A stretch of DNA of 64,000 nt from Treponema sp. Lineage in GTDB: Bacteria > Spirochaetota > Spirochaetia > Treponematales > Treponemataceae. The notes under the pieces are model-generated. The model was given only the letters and a program-made list of their open reading frames with translations, was not told the origin of the DNA and searched no databases. Positions within the stretch are counted from its first letter, which is position 1, and every line of letters begins with the position of its first letter. The stretch spans positions 1-64,000 of the forward strand of contig JAFSJX010000075.1 in assembly GCA_017449285.1 (NCBI GenBank), written 5' to 3'. This document shows positions 6,625 to 51,838 of this stretch, piece after piece. The position numbers and the translations under genes were made by a program.

Positions 6625-6728
6625 GGAGGGGCGAAGCCTCGCCCCTAGGTTCAGCCAGCGGCTTTGCCGCCGTCTTCACCATACCCCACTCTCCTAGGGG
6701 CGATATTTCCGCTTTTCAGCCCCTAAGA
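6625..6728 (-). repeat. Family-1 palindromic repeat, copy A
   Basis: In the 311-base interval between gdhA and the M13 peptidase. Read on the minus strand it has three hairpins: TAGGGGC(TGAAAAGC...)GCCCCTA, then GGCGGC/GCCGC, then GGGGCGAGGCTTCGCCCC. Its stem sequences differ from copies B and D by paired changes. Confidence 0.75.
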
Positions 6729-6758
6729 CCTGCAAGACAGACTTACTTCCCTTCAATT

Positions 6759-10343: not shown

Positions 10344-10347
10344 CGGC

Positions 10348-10446
10348 GGGCGTTGCGGGGCTGAAAAGCGGAAAATTGCCCCGCAGAATGGGGTGTGGTG
10401 AAAACCGCGTAGCGGGTTGAACCCAGGGGAAAGGCTTTTCCCCTCC
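10348..10446 (+). repeat. Family-1 palindromic repeat, copy B
   Basis: It begins five bases after a TAA stop. Hairpins: GCGGGGC(TGAAAAGC...)GCCCCGC; ACCGC(GTA)GCGGG; GGGGAAAGGCTTTTCCCC. The core GGGGCTGAAAAGC is shared with copies A, C and D. Confidence 0.8.
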
Positions 10447-10483
10447 TCTTTATATTCTTGCGGGAATGCGGTATACTGAGGGT

Positions 10484-11812
10484 ATGAATGGTCGTTTGTG
10501 CAGGCGGGCGGGATTTTTTCTTTTTTTGCTCGCGTTTTTTTCAGTGGTGATGGCGTGCGGGTCTACGTTGGGGTACAGCGTTGTCTTGTGGAATGACAGC
10601 GAGAACCAGTTGCAGGACGGAACGATTGTCCGTGTGTATATCCGCTCAAATATTTCTCATGTGTATGTGATTGGGCTTCCTGAGTCAAATAAAAAAGTGG
10701 AGATTCCGCTGTGGATGCTGACTGAGCCGACGAACATGAAAAAAGCGAAAAGAATTGCGGCGCGCTATGCGGAATATGAGCATACCTATGCTTCGGTCAA
10801 ACTGGACGGGCTTCCGATTCGGGCGGAGGCGGTGAACACGTCGAAACAGGTCTATCGTCTGCGTGAAAAAGAAATTATCCGCGTTCTGTACAAGGGAAAA
10901 GGACAGGCGGTGACAAACGGAAAGGGCAATATGCAGGGCGAATGGCTTCGGGTACTGACTTCGGGCGGAACGCAGGGCTGGTGCTTTTCGTACAATCTGG
11001 ATTTGTTTCAGGCGGATGCGCAGGGGCTTTCTCAGAACAAGAATTCGGATTCCGTGGTGGAAAAGGCGGACACGTTGTTGGATGCGGTGATTACAAAAGC
11101 GTGGTATCCGGAGCAATATCTTGATATGATTCAGAACAAGCGCATTGACCCTTCAAGAATGGACGCGACTTATGGATTCGGCATTGCGACGGACTATCAG
11201 ACGATTCGGCTGGCATTGCAGTCAACGTCGCTTTCGTGGAAATATTCGGGCATTGAGAAGGCGAGCGACAAGGTGTACCATTTTGCGGAAACGCCGGTGA
11301 CGATGACGGTACGCAATGAAAACGAAATCGCCGTGCAGTTTACCGACAATGACGGCAAAATCAAATCGCAGAATTTTGTCGCGCTTTCGGAGAATATTTC
11401 CGCGCTCTTGCAGGAAGAAATCAACCGTCGCTCAAAGGAACTGGAGCAACTGCGGCTTTTCGGTCCGTCATTCTCCAGCTCAAACTACGGCAAACTTTCG
11501 TTCCGCGAGGGAAATCTGTTCACGTGGAGCGGCTACAACCTGCTTGTCCCGTCGATAATCGCAAAGTCGGCGAAAGGAAACGGCACGGTCAGCGTGAATT
11601 ATTTTATCTCCAGTTCGCTCAAAACTTCGTATGACGGTATTCTGACGTTCCGTTTTAACGAAATGGCAAAAGAAGTGAATTTCCTGTACAAGATGACTGA
11701 TGATGGCTTGCGACTGGAAGATGCGACTCAGGCGCAAATCAGTAACGGCGTGGTGGTAAGCCGAAGTTCAAGTCCCTTGGTTATTTTCTTTGCCCACGAC
11801 ACAGGACGGTAG
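10484..11812 (+). CDS. Lipoprotein with SH3-like domain, unknown function
   Basis: A 442-residue exported protein. The signal peptide MNGRLCRRAGFFLFLLAFFS ends in a lipobox-like VMAC. Near residues 100-170 is an SH3b-like stretch (VRVYIRSN earlier, then REKEIIRVLYKGKGQA and GEWLRVLTSGGTQGWCFSYN), the pattern of bacterial SH3 domains that bind peptidoglycan or peptides. The remaining 260 residues are beta-rich and unrecognised. TATACT (10472-10477) is six bases before the ATG at 10484, so I chose that start over 10466, which lies upstream of the -10 box. The ABC-F gene starts two bases after the stop, so the two are cotranscribed. Confidence 0.75.
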   Translation: MNGRLCRRAGFFLFLLAFFSVVMACGSTLGYSVVLWNDSENQLQDGTIVRVYIRSNISHVYVIGLPESNKKVEIPLWMLTEPTNMKKAKRIAARYAEYEHTYASVKLDGLPIRAEAVNTSKQVYRLREKEIIRVLYKGKGQAVTNGKGNMQGEWLRVLTSGGTQGWCFSYNLDLFQADAQGLSQNKNSDSVVEKADTLLDAVITKAWYPEQYLDMIQNKRIDPSRMDATYGFGIATDYQTIRLALQSTSLSWKYSGIEKASDKVYHFAETPVTMTVRNENEIAVQFTDNDGKIKSQNFVALSENISALLQEEINRRSKELEQLRLFGPSFSSSNYGKLSFREGNLFTWSGYNLLVPSIIAKSAKGNGTVSVNYFISSSLKTSYDGILTFRFNEMAKEVNFLYKMTDDGLRLEDATQAQISNGVVVSRSSSPLVIFFAHDTGR

Positions 11813-11814
11813 CC

Positions 11815-13869
11815 GTGGCATTCGTTCAATTCTCTCAGGTTTCACTTGCCTTCGGCGACCGTGATATTCTCAAAAATGTGTCAGTCAATTTGCAGGCAGG
11901 AAGCAAAGCTGCTCTGACAGGCGCAAACGGTGCGGGAAAGTCTACGCTTATAAAGGTGATGGCAGGTCTTTTAGAGCCTGATAGCGGTACTCGTGTCGCC
12001 CAAAAAGATGCCCGCATTTCCTATCTTCCGCAGAGCGGACTGACCCATCATGGCTGTACCCTGCGGGAAGAGGCGGACAAGGCATTTGCCTTTGGCTACG
12101 AACTGAATGAAGAACTGGAGCGCATCGGCGATGAGTTGCAGAAAAATCCGCCAAATACCAAAGTGCTGCTCGAAAAGCACGATGCGATTCTAACGGAACT
12201 GGAAAATTCTGGCTGGAACAGGCGCGGCGTGACGGCGGAGCAGGTGCTGATTGGTCTGGGCTTTAGCCACGAGGATTTGGACAGGCAGACCGAGGAGTTT
12301 TCGGGCGGCTGGCAGATGAGGATTGCCCTTGCCAAGGCACTGATGGTGAACCCCGACATTCTGCTTTTGGACGAGCCGACCAATTATCTGGACATTGAGG
12401 CGCGCGCTTGGCTTGAAAAATTTCTCAAGGATTACAATGGCGGCTTTCTGCTGGTCAGTCATGACCGCTATTTTCTTGACCACACCATAAATGTCGTGTA
12501 CGAACTTTTTAACGGCGACCTGCACAAATATCCCGGCAATTTTACCCACTACGAAAAGACGCGGGAAGTGGAACTTGAAACGCTGATTTCCCAGTATGAG
12601 CAGCAGCAGGCGGAAATTGCAAAACTGGAAGATTTTATCCGCAGATTCGGCGTAAAGGCGACCAAGGCGGCACAGGCGCAGGAAAGGCAGAAGATGCTGG
12701 ACAGGCTGCGGGAAAATGAGATTGTCATACCGGAATCCCTCAAAAAGATTCATTTTACCTTTCCCGCCGCTCCTCATGCAGGTCGCCTTGTCCTCACGCT
12801 GGAAAAAGTGACAAAATCCTACGACGGAAATGCACCTGTTCTGAAAGACGTGGACTTGCTCGTGGAAAATGGCGACCGACTTGTGGTTGCGGGGCATAAC
12901 GGCGCGGGAAAGTCAACTTTGCTCAGAATTATCGCAGACGCGGCGGGTCTTGCGGGCGGCGACAGTGATTTTTCAGGCGAGGTAAAACTGGGGGCGGGCG
13001 TTTCGGTGGGCTATTTTTCTCAGGACAACGCCGAGTCGCTCAAAGGCAGTCAGACGATTCTGGATTTGCTCGAAAGCGAAGCCCCCCTGGAACTGATTCC
13101 CCGACTGCGCGACATGCTGGGAGCCTTCCTCTTCCGTGGCGATGATGTCTTCAAGTCCATTGACGTTCTGAGCGGCGGTGAAAAAAGCCGTGTCGCATTG
13201 CTTCGTCTCCTCCTGCGTCCCGTGAACCTGCTCGTCCTTGACGAACCGACCAACCATCTGGACATGCATTCCAAGGACGTGCTCATGGATGCCCTCAAGG
13301 ATTTTGGCGGCACCGTCATTTTTGTCAGCCATGACCGGGGTTTTATCGAAGGTCTTTCCACCCGTGTTCTGGAACTCAAACCTGGACGCTACCGAACCTT
13401 CCCTGGCGACTATGCCTATTACATGCAGCGGCTGGAAGACGAGGCGAACGGTATTGTAGGTACAGAAAATTTGGAGGGGAAAAGCCCGCTTGAAACTTCG
13501 CCTAGCGGCTCGTTGCGAATGTCCCCTAGTTCGCACTCCGTTGCTCACATACCCCTTTCGCCTAAGGGGCAAGACCCCTTAAAATCCCCGGCAAATGCTC
13601 CCGTCAGCACAACCAAACAAAGTTGGGAAGAGCAGAAAAAACTCGCCTCTGAGCGCAGAAAACTGGAGCGCGAAGTTGCCGCTCTTGAAAAAGAAATTGA
13701 AACGGTAGAAAATAAACTCAAGGAAGCGCAGATAAAAATGTCGAATCCCGACGTGTACTCCAACGGCGAAAAAGCCAAAGCCGTACAGCGGGAAATTGAC
13801 GAGTTGAGCGCACAACTGGAAAACTTGAACACCCGCTGGGAAACGGCGGCGGAAAAAATGGAGGAATAG
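11815..13869 (+). CDS. ABC-F family ATPase (translation/ribosome-associated)
   Basis: A 684-residue soluble protein with two ABC domains and no membrane part. Walker A sites are GANGAGKST (about 36) and GHNGAGKST (about 360). Signatures are SGGWQMRIALAKAL and LSGGEKSRVAL. Walker B sites are LLLDEPTNYLD and LVLDEPTNHLD. The linker helix lies between the domains, and a C-terminal coiled coil (KLASERRKLEREVAALEKEI) is of the Uup/YdiF kind. ABC-F proteins bind the ribosomal E site and relieve stalls or antibiotic effects; which subfamily this is cannot be said. Residues about 553-592 are unlike any ABC-F linker and are encoded by a palindromic repeat (13474-13592). The start is GTG, two bases after the upstream stop. 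Confidence 0.9.
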   Translation: MAFVQFSQVSLAFGDRDILKNVSVNLQAGSKAALTGANGAGKSTLIKVMAGLLEPDSGTRVAQKDARISYLPQSGLTHHGCTLREEADKAFAFGYELNEELERIGDELQKNPPNTKVLLEKHDAILTELENSGWNRRGVTAEQVLIGLGFSHEDLDRQTEEFSGGWQMRIALAKALMVNPDILLLDEPTNYLDIEARAWLEKFLKDYNGGFLLVSHDRYFLDHTINVVYELFNGDLHKYPGNFTHYEKTREVELETLISQYEQQQAEIAKLEDFIRRFGVKATKAAQAQERQKMLDRLRENEIVIPESLKKIHFTFPAAPHAGRLVLTLEKVTKSYDGNAPVLKDVDLLVENGDRLVVAGHNGAGKSTLLRIIADAAGLAGGDSDFSGEVKLGAGVSVGYFSQDNAESLKGSQTILDLLESEAPLELIPRLRDMLGAFLFRGDDVFKSIDVLSGGEKSRVALLRLLLRPVNLLVLDEPTNHLDMHSKDVLMDALKDFGGTVIFVSHDRGFIEGLSTRVLELKPGRYRTFPGDYAYYMQRLEDEANGIVGTENLEGKSPLETSPSGSLRMSPSSHSVAHIPLSPKGQDPLKSPANAPVSTTKQSWEEQKKLASERRKLEREVAALEKEIETVENKLKEAQIKMSNPDVYSNGEKAKAVQREIDELSAQLENLNTRWETAAEKMEE
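13474..13592 (+). repeat. Repeat-derived in-frame insertion in the ABC-F gene
   Basis: Hairpin-rich DNA with CCTAAGGGGCAAGACCCCTT and ACCCCTTTCGCCTAAGGGG. It closely matches the reverse complement of the intergenic repeat at 33297-33378. It is translated as a Ser/Pro-rich linker (LETSPSGSLRMSPSSHSVAH) between the second ABC domain and the coiled coil. Confidence 0.65.
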
Positions 13870-20436: not shown

Positions 20437-20577
20437 GGGGCGTTGCGGGGCTGAAAAGCGAGAAGATTGCCCCGCAGAGGGGGTAGGCGGAAATTGACGG
20501 TGTTTGAGGTGGTTGAGCGTGTCGAAACCACATCAAACACTGTCGATTGTAGCCGAGGGGGAGACTTCCCCCGCCGT
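20437..20577 (+). repeat. Family-1 palindromic repeat, copy C (expanded)
   Basis: Begins GGGGCGTTGCGGGGCTGAAA shortly after the plsC stop. Its middle is replaced by a long hairpin (GACGGTGTTTGAGGTGGTT / AACCACATCAAACACTGTC). It ends with the module GTAGCCGAGGGGGAGACTTC-CCCC. Confidence 0.75.
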
Positions 20578-33273: not shown

Positions 33274-33296
33274 GTTGTGTACTATAGCAGAACGGG

Positions 33297-33378
33297 GGTT
33301 TTAGGGGAACTCCCCTAGGAGAAAGGGGTAGCGCCGTACGCAGTAGGCGGTAGGGGAAAGGCTTTTCCCCTCATAAAC
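33297..33378. repeat. Family-1-related palindromic repeat, copy E
   Basis: GGGTTTTAGGGGAACTCCCC, then CCTAGGAGAAAGGGG, then GGGGAAAGGCTTTTCCCC. Its reverse complement resembles the insertion in the ABC-F gene, and its last hairpin is identical to that of copy B. Confidence 0.65.
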
Positions 33379-40127: not shown

Positions 40128-43100
40128 GTGGTTGTTCTCGCAGCTTTTATTTCTACGGCGATTTCTCTTGCGGTAATTTTTTTGTTCCGCGCGCTGGACA
40201 AAGACAATAATGCTATGGATAAGGTGCGCCGGTATTCCAATTCGCGCATTGAAGAATTTGAAAAATATTTTAAGGAGCAGGCGCAGAATTTGAACGGCGT
40301 TTCTGCTGACCTTGATACCCGGCAGACGACTGCGAATGCTGCGGTAAAGCGGCTTGAAAATCAGATTTCAGAATTCAAAAAAATGAGCAGTGGATTTGAA
40401 AAAGAATTCAACGCAGTGGACTCAATCGGCAACAAAATTGAGCGGTATGGTGCGGTGCTGAACGAACTGATGGAGATGACTGAAAAAGCCGAAGAAAATC
40501 TTGAGAATATCCGCACGGAAACAAGAATTATTGATGATTTGCGCTCAAAGTTGGAGAGCCAGAAAAAAATAGTCGATTCTATCGAAAAAAAGATTCCGCA
40601 GATTAACGAAAAATTCAGGGAAGATAACCAGAATCATCTCCAGTTGATTGGAACGGAATTGCTGAACCAGTATAACGCCCGCGCGGAGCAGATTGATACG
40701 TCTACAAAGGCCGCCGCAGACCATACGGACAAAGTGCTGGCAAAAATTGAATCGGATATTCAGGCGGCATATATCAACGCAGCGCAAAAGGCGGCAAATC
40801 TTGAGGATACAGCATTCAAAAATCTGACGAAAAAAGCGGAGGAACGCAGTGACAATTATCTGCGTGAACTGAATGCCCGGCTGAAAGATTTGGAGAGCCA
40901 ACTGCTGGCAAAGGCAAATGAATTGCAGCGCATGATTGAGCAGCGTTCCAATGCGTTTACGGCAAATTTGGGCGAACGTTCCACCGCAATGGACAACGAA
41001 TTCAGAACAAAGACTTCTGAACTTTCCCAGTTTCTCAAAGCGGAGACGGATTCTATCAAGCGGCAGTTTACCGAATCTTTGCAGCAGGCAAAGAAAACCG
41101 CATCTGAACTTCAGGCAGAAGTGAATGGCAACGGAAAAACCTTGGAAAGCCTTCGCGCATCGCTTGAACGGCAGACGCATGATTTGCAGACTCGCTACGG
41201 TAATCTGTACCAGAAAGCGATTGCCGATGCTGATTCAAAAGAAACTGCCGCTTACGAAAAATTTCAGGATTATTCGGCAAAGCATTTGGATGTGTACAAA
41301 ACTTCGGTGCAAGACAGAATCAATATGCTGCAGTCCGAAATGAACCAAAAAGTCTCCACAATGCAGGACAATGTGACCGAAAAAGTCAACGCGTTGCAAA
41401 GCGAGGTAGAAAGCAAAGTCACCACAATGCACGACAGCGTGAACGAAAAAGTCAATACGTTGCAGAATATAGTGGCAGAAAAAGTCAGCACATTGCAGGC
41501 CGATGTCGAAGGCAAAGTCACCACGCTTCAGGTTGATGTCGAAACTAAGGTCAACGCTCTTCAGTCAGATGTCAGCGAAAAAATGGCGGACGTACAGACA
41601 AAAGTGCAGTCTACGCTTGCCGATGTGCAGAAAACATTGGATGATTCTGCGACGGGGGCGACCGCTACGGCAACACGAATCGCAGAGACTGCGGAAAAAG
41701 CGAATTTGGAATTGACTTCATTCCAGCAGCAGGCAGACGAAAAAATCAAGACCATTAACGATAAACTTGCCGAAATGACAAAAGTGCTTTCCACGACTTA
41801 CGATGCGAAGCAGACAGAATTGCTGGACATCGTGGACAAACAACTGACCGAATATCGGAAGAACATGGAATATCGTTTTGGCAAACTGGAACAGGTCAGC
41901 GCAGACGTAGATACGTTGGAAAAAAATCTGCGTCAGACAATGGAAAATACGCAGGAACGGGTTCTGGGCGAATTCAACAGTTTTACGGCTATGCAGGATC
42001 AAAGGCAGGAAGATTTTGCCCGTTCCGTCAAAATGAATAACGACGAACTTTCCGCTCAGATTGAGACGCTGGAAAGAAATCTTGCGGAAATCAAGGCGAC
42101 GGCAAGCAGCAATGTAAGCGCAACGCTCAAAGACTTCGAGGAGAATTTTGTTGCGGATTTAAAGCAGCGTAGTGATAAGATTGACGATGATTTGAACGCA
42201 TGGAAGCAGAACCTTGATTCTCGGCTGACGGTGCTGAGCGGTGATTTTGAGAGCAAAAGAACTGACCTTGAATCGAAATACGTTGACGACTTAAAGAGCC
42301 GCCTTGCCGAACTAGAGGCGAAGAACCGCGAACTGGCAGAACGCTACGAGGCGAATTTCTCTCAGGCGCAGAACGATATTCAGCAGAAAATCAGCGCGGT
42401 TGAAGAAAATATCCGTACCTTTACGGAAAAATCTCGTTCCAGTTTGCAGACGGCGGCCGAAAATTCTGACAGCCTGATACGGGCAAGCCTTGAAGGATAT
42501 GCCCAGCGCGTAAACGAAATGATTGCTAAGGCAGAAAAAGAAATGTCGGGAAAACTCTCCGAAATTGAGCAGACCGTACAATCGCGGCAGGAAACAAATA
42601 ATGCGACAATTGATGGCATGGTGAGCGATTTGACTACGTGGCGCAGTCAGTTGAAGTCTCAATTTGAGCAAAATCGCGATTTGTTTACAAAGCAGTTGCA
42701 ATCGCTCAAGACAGCGGCAGAACAGAAAGTTGGCGAAATCCAGATTGCGTTCAATCAAAATGTGTCCGAGTTCCAGAACAAAACGCGTGACCATCAGGAA
42801 GAACTTTCTGCGGACATTTCAAGTTTGCAAAGTCAAATGGAATCATCGGTGGCTGATTACAAGGCGCGTTCCGAGCAGGTTCTTGATGAGCAGCGGCGTA
42901 TGTATGAGGATATGCTCAAAGAAACTCAGAAACGTGTGCGTGAGCAGAACGAGGAAGCCGAAAAGAAACTGCATGACTTGCAGGTTCAGATTCAGACGGT
43001 AAACGATACCGCCGATGCCCGCGAAGCAGAATTGACTATGCGTATGCAGTCCGAGGCAAACGATTTGCAGATGCGGTTCAGCGAGATTGACAAGCAGGTT

Positions 43101-51315: not shown

Positions 51316-51416
51316 TGGAGGGGGGAAGTCTCCCCCCTGGGTTCAGCCCGCTTCGCGGTCTTCACCACACCCCCTTCTGCGGGGCAGTTATTTTGCTTTT
51401 CAGCCCCGCAACGCCC
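51316..51416 (-). repeat. Family-1 palindromic repeat, copy D
   Basis: The reverse complement reads GCGTTGCGGGGCTGAAAAGC, then TGCCCCGC, GACCGCGAAGCGGGCTGAAC and GGGGGGAGACTTCCCCCC. It follows the OMP stop and overlaps the 3' end of the convergent DUF523 gene. Confidence 0.8.
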
Positions 51417-51838
51417 TCGGCATCTGCTTTACTTTCTCCGTACACGGCGATACCGTTTTTTAAAAATAGTTCTGCCGTAATGCCGTTTCCGCTCACCAGC
51501 CCGCCATCAAATTTTCCGTTGTGAATCTGACCGCAGCCACAGGACGGACTTTTTTCTTTCAGCACGGCAACGGAACAGCCGTTTTCCTGCGCAATCCGCA
51601 ATGCTTCCCGCGCTCCTTTTTGGTACGCTTCCGTCTTGTCGTTTCCATTGCAGTCAAGCACCCGCCCGCCTACGATTTCGCACGACGGTCGGGGAGTGGG
51701 TAATCCGCCCAGCACTTCAGGACATACAGGGATAAGTTCTGCCTTTTCCGCAAGGCTCTGCACCGCCGCACACGGCTTTGCTTCTCCATCGTATCGACAT
51801 GCTTCCCCCAAAAGACACGCACTTACCAAAATCTTCAT
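51362..51838 (-). CDS. DUF523 (YbbK-type) protein with repeat-encoded tail
   Basis: A 158-residue cysteine-rich protein. The opening KILVSACLLGEACRYDGEAK, then PVCPEVLGGLPTPRPSCEI and KSPSCGCGQIHNGKFDG, is the complete DUF523 core with its conserved cysteines, which may bind metal. Function is unknown; the domain is also found fused to DUF1722. The core ends near residue 137. The last 17 residues (GVAGLKSKITAPQKGVW) are encoded entirely by family-1 repeat copy D. TATAAT lies five bases before the ATG, another leaderless-type start. Confidence 0.85.
   Translation of the reverse strand: MKILVSACLLGEACRYDGEAKPCAAVQSLAEKAELIPVCPEVLGGLPTPRPSCEIVGGRVLDCNGNDKTEAYQKGAREALRIAQENGCSVAVLKEKSPSCGCGQIHNGKFDGGLVSGNGITAELFLKNGIAVYGESKADAEGVAGLKSKITAPQKGVW

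Follow-up and report, generated by a model that had tools for sequence, protein, structure and literature searches.

Within the window, the 64,000-nucleotide stretch of Treponema DNA that was analyzed, the ABC-F ATPase gene at positions 11,815–13,869 (+) contains a copy of a non-coding palindromic element that occurs many times in the genome and for which we use the working name Treponema palindromic element (TPE). We consider it very probable that TPE is a selfish element resembling the Rickettsia palindromic elements (RPE), tolerated where it lies in frame in a disordered linker or in a surface loop.

An element copy in the linker of an ABC-F protein

The host gene starts with GTG and encodes a protein of 684 amino acids that meets the features of an ABC-F ATPase, with two ABC domains, an interdomain linker and a C-terminal domain (Pfam ABC_tran twice, ABC_tran_Xtn and ABC_tran_CTD), and that matches NCBIfam NF000355 (ribosomal protection-like ABC-F) above the cut-off. 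Among proteins of solved structure, E. coli YheS is its closest homologue by E-value; the nearest ABC-F protein comes from Treponema sp. UBA3819, and the window genome groups with Treponema. An earlier note, made from the letters alone, had described positions 13,474–13,592 as the reverse complement of an intergenic repeat (its comparator being 33,297–33,378), translated in frame into a Ser/Pro-rich flexible linker of about 40 residues between the second ABC domain and the coiled-coil tail. The repeat is real, and only its boundaries had to be refined, to 13,475–13,589 (−), a composite form of 115 bp whose antisense reading corresponds to the 39 residues 554–592 (EGKSPLETSPSGSLRMSPSSHSVAHIPLSPKGQDPLKSP). 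The comparator is also a genuine copy, placed by our models at 33,294–33,371 (+; R1 E = 5.3e-17 genome-wide, R2 E = 3.7e-18). The insert lies between the second ATPase domain and the tail as described, with the frame kept: the coiled-coil tail, 3′ of the linker at 13,618–13,866 (+), is still in frame (ABC_tran_CTD at residues 615–677, predicted helices at residues 603–683).

The covariance model R1 assigned 73.1 bits to the ABC-F copy. Since the training set of R1 had included the ABC-F, CarB and GltB coding copies, a second model, R2, was built only from intergenic copies, without these three, in order to avoid circularity. In a search of the window, R2 still recovered the ABC-F copy (51.4 bits, E = 5.6e-12), which upholds the match to the reverse complement of the intergenic repeat; R2 E-values are rough, as the calibration was a short one. 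By blastn, the closest match of the ABC-F copy was an intergenic copy on another contig of the same genome (L011/L144; 82% over 123 nt, E = 3e-23), and the linker of the nearest relative (L049) was absent from the list of blastn matches to the window copy. Hairpin 1 of this copy spans 13,563–13,581 (−), its arms (13,563–13,569 and 13,575–13,581) being taken from the sequence and its structure from a consensus with two-sided pair changes. The outer arms of hairpin 2 (AGGGG.. / ..CCCCT), assigned from the consensus structure and the sequence, span 13,475–13,527 (−) and are pushed apart by an extra module of 34 nt nested between them at 13,487–13,520 (−), which is common to the intergenic copy L011/L144 (alignment A1, columns 111–144). 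Folding of the single ABC-F copy was not unusually stable (z of −0.98 and 0.09), so that the claim of a palindrome rests on covariation across the family.

The element-encoded residues comprise 10 Ser and 7 Pro, that is 44% S+P compared to 10% in the whole protein. In the AlphaFold2 model, residues 560–602 have a pLDDT below 50, with the rest mostly above 85, and the linker is accordingly predicted to be disordered. A linker was present in all compared orthologues from Treponema and other spirochaetes, with a length of about 37–113 amino acids over the compared segment and with a hypervariable sequence. Since every orthologue has some linker, the element, as judged from these alignments, is taken to enlarge or replace a pre-existing tolerant linker and not to create one. 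A linker conserved in distant orthologues without similarity to the repeat would have refuted the earlier note; the alignment revealed none, and repeats have been gained and lost at this position.

Architecture and reading frames of the repeat family

A short core pattern of the repeat had two matches in the window versus 0.00 expected, and 18 matches in the genome of the window versus one for a reversed control. With R1, 61 copies were detected in this genome at E ≤ 0.01, mostly of 75–130 bp, which meets the feature of a multi-copy palindromic intergenic repeat of RPE-like size (about 100–150 bp). Further intergenic copies in the window are located at 6,627–6,733 (−; R2 E = 7.4e-19), at 10,346–10,444 (+; R2 E = 4.3e-14), upstream of the gene at 10,466–11,812, and at 51,319–51,417 (−; R2 E = 6.8e-13), together with a diverged copy of the GCGTTGCGGGG-type variant at 20,437–20,574 (+; R2 E = 5.9e-6). 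The nearest relative, L049, likewise has an element upstream of its ABC-F gene (copy at 1525–1649). No match in Rfam 15 at E ≤ 1 was obtained for five element loci.

The aligned copies share a plan of two hairpins, GGGGTTTTAGGGG-loop-CCCCTAGGNGAAAGGGGT-variable middle-AGGGGAAAGGCTTTTCCCCT. Both hairpins are GC-rich (TTTTAGGGG..CCCCTAGG and AGGGGAAA..TTTCCCC), and the variable middle that they flank may hold further small palindromes. Two-sided (compensating) changes were observed in 5 of the 15 pairs of both hairpins, and the palindromic nature of the element is thus supported by two covarying hairpins.

All 23 internal copies inspected by eye in three genomes showed one reading per strand: insertions on the sense strand encode ..LGExxPLGEG...GETSPS and those on the antisense strand GExxPSL...SATPSAGxxP. 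Among the intergenic copies, antisense frames were more open than in dinucleotide shuffles (80 versus 63.7, SD 4.1) and sense frames were not (36 versus 42.1, SD 4.5). Open antisense frames may help the element to survive in genes. Antisense ORFs over the intergenic copies of L144, L151 and L153 were discarded, having no recognisable domain by inspection and better gene candidates on the opposite strand.

In-frame copies in other conserved proteins

A genome-wide search for other coding insertions, as suggested in the earlier note, was productive: in the genome of the window, at least 8 of the 61 copies are internal and in frame, in seven proteins, and more were found in other species. The hosts assigned with Pfam are the ABC-F protein described above, a second ABC-F with two copies in opposite orientations, CarB (in its C-terminal half), glutamate synthase (ahead of the GXGXG domain), RimO, an ABC exporter and a FeoB-associated/metal-binding-like protein. 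Genome G015 has 28 copies, of which 11 are internal and in frame, in CarB (N-terminal and C-terminal parts), CarA, UvrD/PcrA, MetH, DUF763, NFACT, a radical-SAM protein, VirD4/TraG, Hpre_diP_synt_I and ABC-F2. This genome is that of the isolate Treponema bryantii XBD1002, with 4950/4950 bases identical to NZ_FORI01000013 at the ABC-F locus. In genome G004, 4 of 30 examined copies are of this kind, in MnmE, a CobQ fusion, the amidotransferase domain of GltB and, at the same site as in the window genome, the ABC exporter.

In these 23 copies, for which frames were counted by eye, the frame is kept on both sides of the insert, and the host families were confirmed by Pfam; these coding copies are also detected by R2, whose training set lacked those of ABC-F, CarB and GltB. 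Copies at gene ends (tails of FtsH and PflA; N-termini of CoaE, of a histidine kinase and of IGPS), where the choice of start or an extended tail makes the reading ambiguous, do not enter the count. Solved homologues of GltB, RimO, CarB and PcrA align on both sides, break exactly at the insert and lack it; in CarA, the alignment with the solved homologue passes through the insert site with poor matching. The insert sites of GltB and ABC-F2 are variable loops in their orthologues, and other species carry elements there too. Location in an unstructured or surface region is therefore a feature met by the inserts, as judged from the pLDDT of the ABC-F linker, the gaps in solved homologues and the hypervariable loops of orthologues. 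Translation of the element peptide is inferred from the open frames and the retained domains, no proteome data being at hand.

Some further observations concern individual loci. The exporter copies of the window genome (L180) and of G004 (L360) lie in the same beta-hairpin turn of the ATPase domain. CarB is split into two genes in this group of genomes, and the three element insertions at L130, L314 and L330 occupy three different CarB positions. The MnmE ORF of G004 (L340, 293–1900) contains a second, weaker element match at 583–667 (−; E = 3.5e-4). In T. bryantii, the copy at 1501–1575 of L325 is in frame near the end of the VirD4/TraG coupling protein of conjugation, through which the element might pass from one species to another. 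In the window, positions 41,341–41,557 hold coding 33-nt tandem-like repeats in a coiled-coil protein, unrelated to TPE.

Recurrence of the element in the ABC-F linker across species

Ninety-three ABC-F loci were chosen by the ABC-F gene alone. At these loci, the element was present in 13 linkers (17.8 kb of linker DNA) and in seven intergenic copies (35.9 kb), and no copy was detected in 523 kb of other coding DNA; its density was higher in linker than in intergenic DNA (p = 0.004). The count of 13 refers to species, and includes two offsetting cases, L022, scored as 'otherORF' because its linker lies beyond its stop codon, and L020, matched twice by overlapping hits. R1 matches in the linker were found, among these species, in L020, L025, L029, L032, L033, L035, L043, L049, L063 and L077, as well as in L098 from termite gut. 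The hot-spot character of this linker is inferred to reflect tolerance, not a choice of target.

On an ABC-F gene tree made without the linker columns, presence of the element needs at least nine changes; the tree was made quickly, and fewer than nine are forced if only its starred branches are counted. The sister species L035 and L043 carry the element in opposite orientations in this linker. In G023 (L022/L057), the linker element contains an in-frame TAA, which would cut off the coiled-coil tail as a natural truncation. Five other ABC-F linkers contain an unrelated palindrome (TGAGCCTGTCGAA type), and one of these five also has the element.

A second palindrome (GGTTGAGCCTGTCGAAACC / CCCTGAGCCTGTCGAAGGG), unrelated to TPE, is also found in frame in the ABC-F linkers of L041/L064 (T. 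bryantii), L037, L052, L058 and L035, where it is read as VVEPVETT or VVSTGSTT, VPEPVEG or GPSTSSGT, depending on the strand. It is likewise nested inside elements (L008, L013) and present in UvrD of T. bryantii (L315). No mention of the palindrome TTCGACAGGCTCA was found in the literature searched. The near-identical ABC-F genes of L113 and L076 have entirely different linkers, the former a TTGACAATTGA-type inverted repeat and the latter an element-like stretch that was not called by the model.

Distribution and origin of the insertions

TPE was found in 50 of 59 genomes of the genus, with 1 to 51 copies each at a stricter setting. No target-site duplication was recognised by eye in the flanks of the 61 copies, for which no clean empty site was available, and our search yielded neither a mobilising enzyme nor a precise empty site. 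The exact inserted length cannot be read because the insertion sites are hypervariable. In the explanation that we favor, TPE would spread through Treponema genomes as DNA, as a non-autonomous, selfish, RPE-like element. Most copies would survive between genes, and a minority would survive within them for two reasons: each strand offers a stop-free frame, and the landing site is an in-frame position within a surface loop or a disordered linker. The host protein would keep its folds and gain a loop of 25–45 residues rich in Ser, Pro and Gly.

The present diversity might instead descend from one or a few old linker insertions that were later altered by gene conversion or recombination with copies of the same genome. 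The likeness of the window copy to an intergenic copy of its own genome, the completely different linkers of close relatives and the higher density in linkers would all agree with such a history, which nevertheless seems improbable to us: conversion requires homologous flanks within the element and would leave its orientation unchanged, yet the orientations in L035 and L043 are opposite; in other species, this linker is taken up by unrelated palindromes of the TGAGCCTGTCGAA type; and many unrelated genes carry insertions. It is an inference that the copies arrived through mobility and that gene conversion alone does not account for them; some of the turnover could be due to conversion between copies. 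It is very improbable that the peptide, or an mRNA hairpin, is kept for a function, for instance in translation pausing or in folding. Such a role would fit the position of several inserts at domain boundaries (the ABC-F linker, GltB before GXGXG, CarB before the MGS domain) and the covarying hairpin pairs, but not the erratic presence among orthologues (at least nine changes), the variable orientation, the inserts inside domains (RimO, the GATase domain of GltB, MnmE) or the lack of an Rfam family match. We infer that the element peptide is near-neutral or tolerated.

Mobilisation of a REP-type element by a RAYT (Y1) transposase is hardly credible, even though intragenic short palindromes are known for GTAG and CGTC REPs (PMC3733652) and the genome of the window has one gene with the RAYT fold (Y1_Tnp). 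Of the 59 genus genomes, just 13 have Y1_Tnp; among the 18 with at least 20 element copies, 13 lack it, T. bryantii included, and over the 59 it showed no correlation with element copy number (rho 0.12, p = 0.36). In the window genome, the contig that carries the Y1_Tnp gene yielded no element copy, and a GTAG tag is not conserved at the ends of the aligned copies. RAYT was rejected as the mobiliser, as its distribution does not track the element. We give practically no credence to a coincidence of low-complexity Ser/Pro linkers or to chimeric metagenome contigs: the draft genome of the window consists of 105 contigs, and metagenome bins make up many of its relatives, but E-values reach about 1e-18 with the model lacking the ABC-F, CarB and GltB copies, the 523 kb of other coding DNA gave no matches, and the same pattern occurs in T. 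bryantii XBD1002, whose identity to G015 over all 4950 bases rules out a draft-assembly error as the cause. Beyond the selfish, tolerated element that we favor, it is conceivable, and in our judgement unlikely, that TPE is an actively spreading coding-repeat system in which a mobiliser prefers protein linkers or spread is steered to them, in-frame insertion would routinely make and remake the disordered linkers of core proteins, and several unrelated palindrome families would compete for the same sites.

Relation to known coding palindromes and significance

RPE (Ogata 2000, 2002) are described in PMC10969869, PMC3767692 and PMC2229807 as short palindromic elements of about 100–150 bp with many copies, which lie between genes and in frame in conserved metabolic genes, with about half of the 44 first reported in ORFs and with no dedicated transposase known. 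These descriptions bear out the statement in the earlier note that in-frame palindromic insertions are known from Rickettsia. Like RPE, TPE is a short multi-copy palindrome found between genes and in frame in conserved genes without a known dedicated transposase. Unlike RPE, it is hosted by spirochaetes of gut and rumen and not by obligate intracellular bacteria, so that the lineage trait of a Rickettsiales host is lacking; it has a distinct two-hairpin design, the same linker is refilled in many species, and its coding copies occur in both orientations with a frame of their own per strand. The tested features of an RPE-like element are present in TPE, without homology to any RPE family having been demonstrated.

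The Wolbachia palindromic elements (WPE) and the coding palindromes of Methanocaldococcus jannaschii are described as protein-coding repeats in conserved genes, and the biotin-ligase gene site shared by WPE and RPE-4 is a precedent for a hot spot (PMC2996958, PMC3767692); these palindromes share the coding habit of TPE in different hosts. GTAG/CGTC REPs are units of 20–40 bp with a GTAG or CGTC tag, the GTAG ones linked to RAYTs; they sometimes lie inside ORFs (uvr, recB), at times at the same site in two species, for which recB of Xanthomonas is a precedent, and CGTC REPs have been reported from Spirochaetes among other phyla (PMC3733652). TPE differs from them in its size of 75–130 bp, its two hairpins and the absence of a conserved GTAG tag and of a link to RAYTs. 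ERIC and Correia-type MITEs are small non-autonomous repeats also fused in frame to genes (PMC2229807), with terminal inverted repeats and TA target duplications, neither of which was noticed by eye in TPE, at sites that have no clean empty counterpart.

We found no report of coding or palindromic repeats in Treponema in the literature searched, which is weak evidence, as the search did not cover most subscription journals. As far as we could find, an RPE-like coding palindrome is new for the spirochaetes; coding palindromes were earlier described from Rickettsia and then from Wolbachia and one archaeon. TPE provides a natural experiment on selfish DNA becoming protein: copy numbers run into the tens per genome, related genomes are numerous, one isolate (T. 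bryantii XBD1002) is in culture, and a single linker has been filled repeatedly. Comparison of close Treponema relatives makes it possible to count the sites and orientations, the frames used and the losses. It is also a warning for annotation, as Ser/Pro/Gly-rich loops in Treponema housekeeping proteins (SLPLA..SATPSAG..P, GVLGAxPLGEGVA..GETSPS) can be derived from repeats, and such loops matter for alignments, phylogeny and structure prediction.
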